DNA of 64,000 nt from Halobacillus hunanensis (GTDB taxonomy: Bacteria > Bacillota > Bacilli > Bacillales > Halobacillaceae). Position 1 is the first letter of the stretch. Each line of letters begins with the position of its first letter. Below, piece by piece: positions 1 to 51,176 of this stretch. The translations under genes and the position numbers were made by a program. The stretch lies in the NCBI RefSeq assembly GCF_900166655.1, contig NZ_FVZB01000007.1, positions 1,116,001-1,180,000 on the forward strand, written 5' to 3'. Under the pieces are notes generated by a model, which was given only the letters and a program-made list of their open reading frames with translations, had not been told where the DNA came from and ran no database searches.

Positions 1-490
1 CACTGAGTCCGTACTATAATTCCCTTTTCATGTCCGTCCTAGAACAGTCTAGGGGATTTCCCCGACAGCCTTTGACCGTTCCTTAGCCTCTTTTGCAGTT
101 CCGATTTCATATAGCGCAAGCCTTCATTCTCCAGTGGCCATCCGAAGATGTGACTGCCCCATGACTATAATCCCCTCGACCCCACTCAAGGCAGGCTACG
201 CTGCTCATACAGTAAATTAAACCATATAAAGCAGGTTCATACCCCATTTCATAAGAATCTCCGGCGGGAGATACTCTTACAAAGATGGGCCTCCGCGGAA
301 GAAGGGTCAACGCCCACATGCCTTTGTGGATCGCCCTGCCACCTTAACTCCCAGCACCGACCCAAGGCTGGGCGCCTCAAGCCGGCACAAGGAACTTCAT
401 CGATGTGCCCTTTGGCGGATTTTTAGGCCCGCCTTCAGGAACGGAGGACCGACTAGAATACTGCACCATCCCTTTTGTAATTTTAATAAT
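1..490 (-). ncRNA. ole: OLE RNA (ornate large extremophilic RNA), 5' part, cut by the window edge
   Basis: There is no credible protein here, but the minus strand downstream of ispA is unusually GC-rich and full of hairpins. I see arms at 414-433 (GGCGG/CCGCC), 384-409 (GGCACA/TGTGCC), 350-371 (CCCAGC/GCTGGG), 314-329 (CCACA/TGTGG), 258-273 (ATCTCC/GGAGAT) and 38-53 (CCTAGA/TCTAGG). In alkaliphilic and other extremophilic Firmicutes the roughly 600-nt OLE RNA sits directly after ispA in the folD-xseA-xseB-ispA operon, before oapA and dxs; this is the same place and strand. Known OLE RNA forms a membrane ribonucleoprotein with OapA and is linked to stress and magnesium responses. The identification rests on context, the absence of coding and remembered sequence character; the 5' end is approximate and the 3' part lies outside the window. 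Confidence 0.82.
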
Positions 491-532
491 ACCATATTCC
501 TTAAGGTTGCTCAATAAATATCCTTTAGACCT

Positions 533-1414
533 TTATCGATCCCTCGTGCTTAAGAAATCAACCAGTGCAGCTAAAAAAGTATCATTCAATCCAGTTTGTT
601 CTAGAGATTGTAAGGCCACATCCATATACCCGTTCATCTCCCTGATCGCTCCTTCAATGCCCAACAATTGCGGATAGGTGCTTTTATCGTTTCCTTCGTC
701 ACTGCCAACCGGTTTACCGATAGCATCGGCATCTCCTAAAACATCTAAAATATCATCCTGTATTTGAAATATAAGACCAAGGACGTTTGCCATGTTCTCG
801 ATTTTCTGAAAGGTTTCAGAAGTAGTATGACTAAGAAAAGCACCCGCCACAATAGCAAAGGAAAGCAACTGTCCCGTTTTATTCATGTGAATAGATTTTA
901 ATTCATCTATCGAGACCTGTTTCCCTTCACTTCGCATATCCTGCATTTGTCCATCCACCATTCCAGCCCCGCCACTTGACCTGGAAAGCTCGCGGATCAG
1001 AAACACTTTTTCATCACTAGTCAAATTGGAGTCTTCGGAAATCACTTGAAAGCTTAGTGTGAGGAGAGCATCCCCCGCAAGAATTGCCGTAGCTTCATCA
1101 TATGCCTTATGAATAGTTGGCTGACCTCTTCTCATGTCATCATTATCCATTGCAGGAAGATCATCATGAATTAAAGAGTATGTATGGACCATCTCCAAGG
1201 CACATGCTGCTGTGTATCCGCGAGTGTAATCAACCCCAAACGCCTCCATTGTTGAAAGAAGTAGTATTGGTCGAACACGCTTTCCTCCAGCCTCAATGGA
1301 ATGAACAATAGCATCTCGTACTCGCCCAGGGTTAATGTGCTTGTTGACGTATCCCAACAATTTTTCATTTATAGTTTGTTGATAATCCCTCAGATGTTCT
1401 TGAAATGCCTCCAC
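533..1414 (-). CDS. ispA: Farnesyl diphosphate synthase (geranyltranstransferase)
   Basis: This prenyl transferase condenses isopentenyl diphosphate with dimethylallyl and geranyl diphosphate to make farnesyl diphosphate, the precursor of quinone tails, heme O and undecaprenyl carriers. The 293 residues carry GGKRVRP (about 43-49), the first aspartate-rich motif DDLPAMD (84-90) and the second DDILD (220-224). The length is normal for the short-chain family. The start is GTG, overlapping the TAG stop of xseB by one base, so translation is coupled. It is the last protein gene before the OLE RNA in the nusB-folD-xseA-xseB-ispA run. Confidence 0.95.
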   Translation of the reverse strand: MEAFQEHLRDYQQTINEKLLGYVNKHINPGRVRDAIVHSIEAGGKRVRPILLLSTMEAFGVDYTRGYTAACALEMVHTYSLIHDDLPAMDNDDMRRGQPTIHKAYDEATAILAGDALLTLSFQVISEDSNLTSDEKVFLIRELSRSSGGAGMVDGQMQDMRSEGKQVSIDELKSIHMNKTGQLLSFAIVAGAFLSHTTSETFQKIENMANVLGLIFQIQDDILDVLGDADAIGKPVGSDEGNDKSTYPQLLGIEGAIREMNGYMDVALQSLEQTGLNDTFLAALVDFLSTRDR

Positions 1415-1650
1415 TATTCCTCCTCCTGAACTTCGTAAGGTTCAAATTCTCCGTGTTCATTTAAAATTTGCTGCATTTGATCTTCCACAAGATTAAGCTT
1501 TCCATTACAAAGCTTTGAAAGCTTCATGCCTTCCTGATAATACTGGATCGCTTCCTCCAGAGGAACATCACCTTCCTCGAGCTTTTCAACAAGTTTTTCC
1601 AATTGTTCCATGGCCTGCTCAAAAGTGAGTTCTTTTTCTTGATTTGTCAT
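1414..1650 (-). CDS. xseB: Exodeoxyribonuclease VII small subunit
   Basis: The 78-residue acidic helical protein has the family core ([26 protein letters not shown] pattern, residues about 9-34). XseB binds the long helical tail of XseA to form exonuclease VII, which degrades single-stranded DNA in both directions. It starts inside the end of xseA (4-base overlap) and its stop overlaps the ispA start, which is typical of stoichiometric coupling in this operon. Confidence 0.94.
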
Positions 1651-3006: not shown

Positions 3007-3858
3007 CTATTTTTGATCTATCCATTTCGCGGCTTTAATCGTGTTGTGCAATAACATAGTAATGGTCATAGGACCAACACCCTTAGGCACAGGGGTTATA
3101 TAGGAAGCCTTCTCTTTTGCTGATTCAAAGTCAACATCTCCAGTTAACTTTCCATCCACACGATTTACACCGACATCGATCACAACTGTACCTTCTGTTA
3201 TATCTTCCCCTGTAATTAAACCAGCCTTGCCAGCAGCTACAATCAGGATATCGGCACGCTTGGTATGCTCCCTTAGATTTTTTGTTCGTGAATGACAGTG
3301 GGTAACAGTTGCATGTTCATTTAATAACAACTGGCCAACTGGCTTTCCGACCAGGTTGCTGCGCCCTATGATCACTACATGTTTACCTTCAATTGAAACC
3401 TCAGCTCGCTTCAACATAACCAGGATTCCAAATGGTGTACACGGATAAAACGTTTCCTGACCTGTCAACATCCGACCGGCATTTATCGGGTGAAATCCAT
3501 CAACATCCTTACTAGGATCTATCGCTTCAATCACATTTTGTTCATCAATTTGCTGCGGTAAAGGCAACTGTACCAAAATACCATGCACTGCTTTATCCTC
3601 ATTTAACTGATTGATAATGTGTAATAGTTCATCTTCTGATGTTTCTGCGGATAATTCAATCAGATCAGAAGCCATGCCAATTTTTTCTGATGCACGCTGT
3701 TTTCCTTTTACATAAGACTTGGAAGCTGGATCTTCTCCGACTATCACCACAACTAATTTTGGATGAACGCCTTCTTTCGATAATTCAGCAATTTCCTCTT
3801 TCATTTCCAGCCGTAAATCTTCTGCTAATTGCTTTCCATAAATAACTTCAGCTGCCAC
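3007..3858 (-). CDS. folD: Bifunctional methylenetetrahydrofolate dehydrogenase/cyclohydrolase
   Basis: FolD interconverts 5,10-methylene-, 5,10-methenyl- and 10-formyl-tetrahydrofolate with NADP. The 283 residues show YVKGKQRA with the catalytic lysine near residue 52-56, the nucleotide-binding GRSNLVGKP, and the C-terminal PVPKGVGPMT signature. The start is GTG behind a GAGGAGG site. It sits between nusB and xseA, as in B. subtilis. With glycine cleavage and formyltetrahydrofolate cyclo-ligase it forms the one-carbon set of this window. Confidence 0.96.
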   Translation of the reverse strand: MAAEVIYGKQLAEDLRLEMKEEIAELSKEGVHPKLVVVIVGEDPASKSYVKGKQRASEKIGMASDLIELSAETSEDELLHIINQLNEDKAVHGILVQLPLPQQIDEQNVIEAIDPSKDVDGFHPINAGRMLTGQETFYPCTPFGILVMLKRAEVSIEGKHVVIIGRSNLVGKPVGQLLLNEHATVTHCHSRTKNLREHTKRADILIVAAGKAGLITGEDITEGTVVIDVGVNRVDGKLTGDVDFESAKEKASYITPVPKGVGPMTITMLLHNTIKAAKWIDQK

Positions 3859-3880: not shown

Positions 3881-4258
3881 CTACATCATTTTTGATAAAA
3901 CACCATTTATAAATTTACCAGATTGATCTTCACCAAACACTTTAGCTAACTCAACAGCCTCGTTGATGGCTACTTGAGCCGGAACCTCTTCACTAAATTT
4001 TATCTCATAGGCTGCCATACGAAGTAGTGTTTTCTCAACACGTGCTAACCGTGAAAAGTTCCAATTCTCTAAATGGCTTTCAATCCACTGATCGATCTCG
4101 TTTCTGTTTGTGACAACACCTTGGACCAACTGGTCTACAAAAGCATCATGAACTTGCTCGTCCATGACGTGTTCAATCGCTTCTTCAGTGTTTATTTCAC
4201 TTGAATCTATTTGAAAAAGAGCTTGGAATGCCTTTTCCCTGGCTGTACGTCTTTTCAT
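3881..4258 (-). CDS. nusB: Transcription antitermination factor NusB
   Basis: The protein is a 125-residue helical RNA-binding protein that joins NusE/S10 at boxA in rRNA operons. It starts [12 protein letters not shown], keeps the NusB pattern FQALFQID and ends [12 protein letters not shown] chose the second of two in-frame ATGs because AAAGGAG lies eight bases before it; the first ATG (4264) is too close to that site. The yqhY terminator lies just upstream, so nusB probably opens the operon that runs to ispA and OLE. Confidence 0.94.
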
Positions 4259-4328
4259 ATTCATTCTCCTTTAATGTCATTTCCGTTAGAATAATAACAT
4301 TTTACCACCTGAAAAGCCATACAATGCG

Positions 4329-50377: not shown

Positions 50378-50453
<76 letters not shown>

Positions 50454-50468
50454 GCTATATCATACTTT

Positions 50469-50730
<262 letters not shown>

Positions 50731-50746
50731 TAAATCAATAGTAGAA

Positions 50747-50839
50747 TGGCGGAGGAGGAGGGATTCGAACCCCCGCGGGCCGTGAAGCCCCTGTCGGTTT
50801 TCAAGACCGATCCCTTCAGCCAAACTTGGGTACTCCTCC
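50747..50839 (-). tRNA. trnS: tRNA-Ser (TGA)
   Basis: This is a 93-nt type with long variable arm, acceptor GGAGGAG/CTCCTCC, anticodon loop CTTGAAA and encoded CCA. Confidence 0.96.
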
Positions 50840-50848
50840 GTGATTTTA

Positions 50849-50925
50849 TGGTGGACCCTGCAGGACTCGAACCTGCGACCGATCGGTTATGAGCCGATAG
50901 CTCTAACCAGCTGAGCTAAGGGTCC
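50849..50925 (-). tRNA. trnI: tRNA with CAT anticodon, probably tRNA-Ile2
   Basis: This is a 77-nt cloverleaf with acceptor GGACCC/GGGTCC and encoded CCA. The body is very like B. subtilis tRNA-Ile2, whose C34 is turned to lysidine by TilS to read ATA. Elongator Met is the alternative, but a separate Met tRNA lies at 51103. Confidence 0.85.
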
Positions 50926-50929
50926 AACA

Positions 50930-51006
50930 TGGGGCGGTTGATGGGGATCGAACCCACGAGTGCCGGAACCACAATCCGGTGCGTTAACCACTTCGCCACA
51001 ACCGCC
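50930..51006 (-). tRNA. trnH: tRNA-His (GTG)
   Basis: This is a 77-nt cloverleaf with an encoded G at position -1 opposite C73, acceptor GCGGTTG/CAACCGC, anticodon loop TTGTGGT and encoded CCA. Confidence 0.96.
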
Positions 51007-51102
51007 ATAATTAAAAGGAATTGTATGTATGAAATTAACTCAATGTTCACTGAATAATGATTAATATTCAGTATCATCTAAACGATCAGACCGAGTTATT
51101 AG

Positions 51103-51176
51103 TAGCGGCGGAGGGGATCGAACCCCCGACCTCACGGGTATGAACCGTACGCTCTAGCCAGCTGAGCTACACCGCC
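51103..51176 (-). tRNA. trnM: Elongator tRNA-Met (CAT)
   Basis: The body GGCGGTGTAGCTCAGCTGGC with anticodon loop TTCATAC is the Bacillus elongator Met tRNA. The discriminator A is followed by CTA instead of CCA, so the end must be added after processing. It is the first tRNA of the cluster. Confidence 0.94.

Follow-up and report, generated by a model that had tools for sequence, protein, structure and literature searches.

The window analysed here, a stretch of 64,000 nucleotides, opens with a region that lies 3' of an ispA gene, and the locus raises the question of whether this region belongs to an OLE RNA gene, whether that gene is intact, and how its product may work. The initial annotation had placed an OLE RNA at positions 1 to 490, directly 3' of ispA on the same strand and truncated at the window edge. 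The RF01071 covariance model confirms the RNA, its strand and its position: the minus strand of 1-485 matches with 352.7 bits (E 5.4e-100), its 3' side being cut by the edge, and the whole gene, with the contig sequence beyond the edge added, reaches 503.4 bits over model positions 1-616 of 616. Both the truncated and the whole form are far above the gathering score of 50 bits that serves as the membership criterion of the family. The truncation at the edge also stood, and only the extent is to be corrected, as the model match stops at 485. The gene and its surroundings are as follows.

1-485, minus strand: first 485 of the 633 nt of the OLE RNA (RF01071, covariance model)
Contig G000:C6:1115853-1116485, minus strand: full OLE RNA gene, 633 nt by the model
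Contig G000:C6:1115853-1116000: last 148 nt of OLE, left of the window (covariance model)
533-1414, minus strand: ispA, farnesyl diphosphate synthase, upstream neighbour (NF045485, 375.9 bits)
1414-1650, minus strand: xseB (family model)
L032:8227-8838, minus strand: oapA homologue directly downstream of ole (by its position and that of its relatives)
Beyond oapA, outside the window: dxs and tlyA (family models)

The full gene is the sole match of a genome-wide scan with the OLE model, and a control set of 14 well-known genomes gave no match. Positions 1-485 on the minus strand thus almost certainly hold the first three quarters of a complete, full-length OLE RNA gene. Other RNAs recognized in the window are a Bacillaceae-1 RNA (RF01690; 12104-12170, plus strand, 74.1 bits), a glycine riboswitch aptamer (RF00504; 24536-24628, minus strand, 71.6 bits) and a cluster of six tRNA genes (50381-51176, minus strand).

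The composition of the region agrees with its early description as GC-rich, protein-free and structured. Its GC content is 0.513 in 1-485 against 0.405 window-wide, and only four of 655 sliding windows of 485 bases are as GC-high, the region 1-485 itself included. The frames overlapping 1-490 are mechanical ORFs of 63, 70 and 90 aa in a listing of frames of at least 60 aa. The strand folds better than shuffled sequences, with z -2.5 and none of 100 shuffles as good for 1-490, and z -5.35 and none of 20 as good for the whole RNA. Folding by itself is moderate evidence, and it is the covariance-model score that decides the identity. That the region is plain DNA, intergenic or coding, whose hairpins arose by chance, as the short overlapping ORFs might suggest, is vanishingly improbable in view of the E value, the empty control genomes and the paired changes seen across relatives.

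The gene order ispA - ole - oapA - dxs - tlyA bears out the expectation that oapA and dxs would come next, the OapA homologue being followed by dxs. The ispA stop codon and position 1 of the OLE model are 47 bases apart. Upstream, on the ispA strand, the frames 1647-2993, 3007-3858 and 3881-4264 are presumably xseA, folD and nusB, and those following tlyA presumably argR, recN, spoIVB and spo0A. The oapA-like frame is open and counts 203 aa when read from its first ATG; four codons further on, a start preceded by GAGG seems preferable. Among the matches listed, the best named ones of its product come from Halobacillus and Thalassobacillus, and the host is a Halobacillus-like bacterium.

Intactness of the RNA was addressed by projecting the Rfam structure onto it. 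In the 633-nt RNA, 149 of the 158 pairs of the model are standard, so that the length (about 600 nt) and the full helix set of an OLE RNA are both found. Four of the nine non-standard pairs fall in the P9.3 tip, a part that the model aligns poorly across the set (46% of cells paired) and that folds as a normal hairpin in the window RNA. A hairpin with a UUCG tetraloop (CAUC-UUCG-GAUG), considered as a window-specific variant of P9.3, turned out to be an ordinary hairpin with GGCC in its loop.

Paired changes were counted in an alignment of 133 rows (53 relatives and 80 named genomes), which reduce to 112 unique cores. Standard pairs fill 91.2% of the pair cells; 200 shuffles give a mean of 80.3% and a maximum of 80.8%, and sliding the partners gives 39.7-43.8%. 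Double changes occur in at least two rows at 100 of the 158 pairs, against at most 73 when shuffled and at most 57 when slid. A wider set of 229 rows and 204 unique cores, which is non-random as short and low-scoring members were picked deliberately, gives 89.6% of standard cells against 77.3% when shuffled, and 114 pairs with double changes against at most 92. Because shuffling leaves the relatedness of the sequences in place, these statistics support the structure without being a proof by themselves.

The same alignments bear on the idea of a pseudogene, that is, a decaying copy with just enough sequence left to score. The nine non-standard pairs could be taken in its favour. Yet the window RNA carries the majority base at all 286 positions that are at least 97% conserved in the 112 relatives, and at 235 of 235 conserved positions in the 204 set; the match also spans the entire model, the oapA frame is open over its whole length and the partner genes are present. 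A decaying copy is therefore extremely unlikely, and an intact OLE RNA is retained. Its elements in and across the window edge are listed below.

465-475, minus strand: 5' strand of the terminal helix (RNA residues 11-21), pairing with residues 613-623 outside the window
414-433, minus strand: P4 hairpin, with the A-rich loop CCUAAAAA at 420-427
398-405, minus strand: palindrome CAUCGAUG of the P4a region
348-394, minus strand: P5/P5.1 stem, with loop GCCCA at 369-373
297-343, minus strand: P6/P6.1 stem, with loop AAGGCA at 319-324
243-289, minus strand: P7 stem (projected structure)
201-234, minus strand: P8 stem (projected structure)
86-192, minus strand: P9 arm, its tip loop carrying the self-complementary GGCC at 136-139

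Several of these elements have counterparts in published models. The hairpin called P4, a name that its order in the RNA suggests, carries a loop probably equivalent to dimer bridge B1 of the cryo-EM model as described in PMC12286853. A palindrome in P4a was proposed as OapA-binding according to PMC12265935, and CAUCGAUG probably maps to it. As far as the published model is described, the P5.1 loop kisses the P6.1 loop in the dimer, the flanks of P5 form the kink turn for OapC, the bS21 site stands on P6/P6.1, and the GGCC of the P9 tip makes dimer bridge B3. Judging by its sequence, the window RNA appears to keep the dimer loops L4 (CCUAAAAA), L5.1 (GCCCA), L6.1 (GGCA) and L9.3 (GGCC), as well as the P4a palindrome. 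In 48 of 53 genomes the predicted fold leaves GGCC unpaired, a further reason for dropping the UUCG variant.

How the RNA begins and ends was approached through its flanks, in which two further elements stand out.

486-514, minus strand: promoter-like site with TTGAGC (509-514), a 17-base spacer and an extended -10, TG-G-TATTAT (hexamer 486-491)
L032:8855-8860, minus strand: hexamer TACATA, beyond the left window edge, at the OLE 3' end

A promoter scan of the window locus by itself gives four sites against 4.6 in shuffles, hence no excess. The extended -10 site is found in 184 of 195 unique 70-base 5' flanks of relatives, when a score of 10 or more is required under a simple scheme that credits the TG with 2 points. 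Mononucleotide shuffles of these flanks reach the threshold 11.9 times on average against the 184 observed, as do 1327 of 20000 GC-matched random windows (6.6%); the flanks being related sequences, such counts are not independent. All 184 scoring flanks have the TG, and 150 have a spacer of 17. The commonest -10 hexamers are TATAAT (73) and TATATT (62), the commonest -35 is TTGAG followed by C, A, G or T, and the end of the -10 mostly stands 17-19 bases ahead of the conserved GGUGCAG. Since the site adjoins OLE and is conserved in relatives, an initial reading that no promoter stands out is reversed. Transcription usually starts about 7 bases past a -10, and such a start would fall here near 477-481, just before the terminal helix.

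This helix has 11 contiguous pairs in the window RNA, at residues that are unpaired in the Rfam structure line. It covaries: 199 relatives average 8.96 contiguous pairs, and 6.49 once the 3' arms are swapped, the 3' arm being the best of several sites, which biases the observed value upward. By its position, it probably corresponds to the published P1. TACATA follows two bases past the helix in the window's genome. Of 199 unique 3' flanks, 183 contain the hexamer, whereas random 80-nt windows drawn from these loci have it in 2.8% of cases; the bases beside it are much less conserved. It is possibly a processing or 3'-end signal; as a promoter element it received no support from the promoter scan. 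A literature search returned nothing linking OLE RNA with TACATA, nor OLE RNA with Halobacillus.

The OLE RNA would thus most likely be transcribed from its own extended -10 promoter, and its ends would join in the terminal helix. The cluster is polycistronic in Halalkalibacterium halodurans according to the review PMC12265935, the text of which does not contain the word promoter, so that read-through from ispA perhaps adds to OLE transcription.

The same flanks would also suit a long structured leader acting solely in cis on oapA-dxs instead of a stable free RNA. Indeed, OLE stands just upstream of oapA in all 53 close genomes, the locus scan gives no terminator-like site after OLE on its strand, and the promoter-like site ahead of it could serve oapA as well. 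Against this, OLE is described in PMC12265935 as the fifth most abundant RNA, rRNA and tRNA excluded, and as a membrane RNP component, pull-downs recover it with proteins as reported in PMC9723947, and the terminal helix fits a self-contained RNA. An exclusively cis-acting leader is therefore very unlikely, and a free-standing RNA in an RNP is the preferred reading.

The association with oapA holds well beyond the window. OLE was found in 53 of 61 relatives, all of which carry an oapA homologue at least 44% identical, on the same contig and strand and within about 105 bases; by the search tool's count, five of the 53 matched oapA stretches contain stop codons. The eight relatives devoid of OLE have no oapA homologue, except for a hit of 21% identity (E 7.9e-4) in a 501-aa frame. 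In a scan of 348 genomes of the order, in which two candidates per genome were scored under strict filters, so that weak OLE matches could be missed, OLE was found in 199, and oapA homologues in these 199 and in one more genome, G239. The latter assembly is 62% complete and its oapA gene begins at base 30 of a contig, which implies that the OLE side was left unassembled. Presence of oapA was counted in all 199 genomes, with adjacency read for the 53 relatives and for 80 named loci; these 80, kept from at least 547 named oapA loci found, all have OLE upstream. The sample agrees with the near-complete mutual inclusion of OLE and oapA reported in PMC11332333, a source that also gives 2,822 OLE matches in Bacillota genomes.

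The other known partners are encoded elsewhere in the genome. A candidate OapB resembles the solved OapB (E 2.5e-31) and is flanked by frames that are presumably map and infA. An OapC candidate matches YbxF (E 6.4e-22) and sits between rpoC-like and rpsL-like frames, and bS21 is present with 66.6 bits for a cut-off of 27. The OapA-like protein itself matches PF01595 (CNNM) with 22.7 bits (E 8.6e-5; cut-off 28.4), none of the NCBIfam models, and no relative among solved structures up to E 1. With family matches weak or absent, its name rests on its position, the position of its relatives and co-occurrence with OLE.

CorC_HlyC proteins, which bear the MpfA domain, are found in all 61 relatives, with means of 2.08 per genome with OLE and 2.63 without, so that the published anticorrelation between OLE and MpfA is hardly visible in this sample. 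Substitution of MpfA for OLE in the relatives devoid of it was considered, and the presence of CorC_HlyC gave no sign of it. The window's genome has OLE together with CorC_HlyC domains of the MpfA type, with three matches (G000:C2 and C6), one of them in a 64-aa frame.

Natural variation in the RNA was surveyed in the 204 unique cores. GGCC is found at the P9 tip in 185 of them; the 19 others comprise G042, six members of family f28 and twelve of family f25. In G042 (L005), the tip carries GGACCGGUCG, another self-complementary sequence. In f28, the tip is divergent with GUAUAC in place of GGCC in all six OLE-bearing genomes sampled (L190, L193, L196, L222, L223 and L224). In f25, the P9.3 arm is lost or short in all twelve OLE-bearing genomes sampled (L172-L179, L192, L202, L210 and L037, the latter from G060); their P9 tip spans 22-43 nt, the median of the remaining cores being 62, two still have GUAUAC, and both the P4a-P8 part and domain 2 have near-normal lengths. 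Loss of P9 alone is absent from the variants described in the part of PMC11332333 that served here. Changes of the L9.3 palindrome from GGCC to GAUC or AGCU have already been reported in a Nature 2025 paper, and palindrome changes as such were set aside as new evidence for the dimer. The additions to what is known at L9.3 are confined to GGACCGGUCG in G042 and GUAUAC in the six f28 and two f25 genomes.

Loops L5.1 and L6.1 are retained in 203 of the 204 cores, the exception being G152 (L221). Its OLE-like RNA measures 489 nt by the covariance model and 472 nt by profile, with P4a-P8 reduced to about 80 nt, and domain 2 and P9 present. It stands between ispA-like and dxs-like frames, and the adjoining oapA frame is open and 50% identical to that of the window. 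The assembly is 83% complete and G152 is the single genome with the short form. Among the four genomes of its family, it is the sole one with OLE and no second copy of this type was found, so that the form may be an assembly oddity.

Taken with the promoter, such forms lead to a tentative proposal, somewhat less probable than its negation, that OLE is an independent transcription unit of modular construction. With synthesis beginning, under the conserved promoter, a few bases from the terminal helix, the high abundance of OLE would not require transcription of the ispA operon. If this is true, the indispensable core would consist of P3, P4, the base of P9 and domain 2 together with OapA, and the dimer bridges would be tunable. 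The main value added by the relatives is that the conserved promoter and the 3' hexamer frame OLE as its own unit; natural OLEs devoid of the P9.3 bridge or of most of P4a-P8 offer existing material on which the dimer and membrane models can be tested.

By analogy with studied systems, the OLE RNA of the window would dimerise through loop-loop contacts, OapA encoded beside it would hold the RNA at the cell membrane, and OapB, OapC and bS21 would complete a stress-response RNP as in H. halodurans. As described in PMC12265935, PMC9723947, PMC12054373, PMC12286853 and PMC10898510, OLE forms a dimer and the binding of OapA brings it to the membrane, one group finds that OapC or bS21 alters its shape, and cells that have lost OLE become sensitive to cold, alcohols, Mg2+ and poor carbon sources. 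For the present locus, use of the promoter, placement at the membrane, dimerisation and the roles under cold, alcohol, Mg2+ and carbon-source stress are accordingly put forward as probable, from sequence features or from those papers. The best guess, which agrees with these papers, is that OLE scaffolds and gates OapA as a divalent-metal transporter. OLE being among the largest structured bacterial RNAs without established biochemical function, clean examples with their partners help define what must stay.

Compared with known systems, the OapA-like protein of the window resembles OapA, a CNNM-domain membrane protein, by its 203 aa, its place right after ole and its weak CNNM match; this match is below the curated cut-off, and it is position and co-occurrence that liken the protein to OapA. 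The 3' strand of P6 in the window RNA has no CCUCC, the anti-Shine-Dalgarno look-alike described for H. halodurans, a sequence found in P6 in 12 of the 204 unique cores. According to PMC12054373, mutants M1-M3 altering a CCUCC-type sequence kept bS21 binding, whereas inversion of conserved G-C pairs abolished it. Published variants, as described in PMC11332333, have P7-P9 shortened together, or P7 and P8 missing; the window RNA belongs to the same RNA class but retains P7, P8, P9 and the P13 region. From the full-length OLE of Fernando and Breaker 2024, of the H. halodurans type, no essential difference was found. The window RNA shares with this type its size class, full coverage of the model, P4-P9, the domain 2 helices, the dimer loops, the P4a palindrome and the position between ispA and oapA-dxs, and the locus is a typical full-length member of the family, of low surprise for a specialist.
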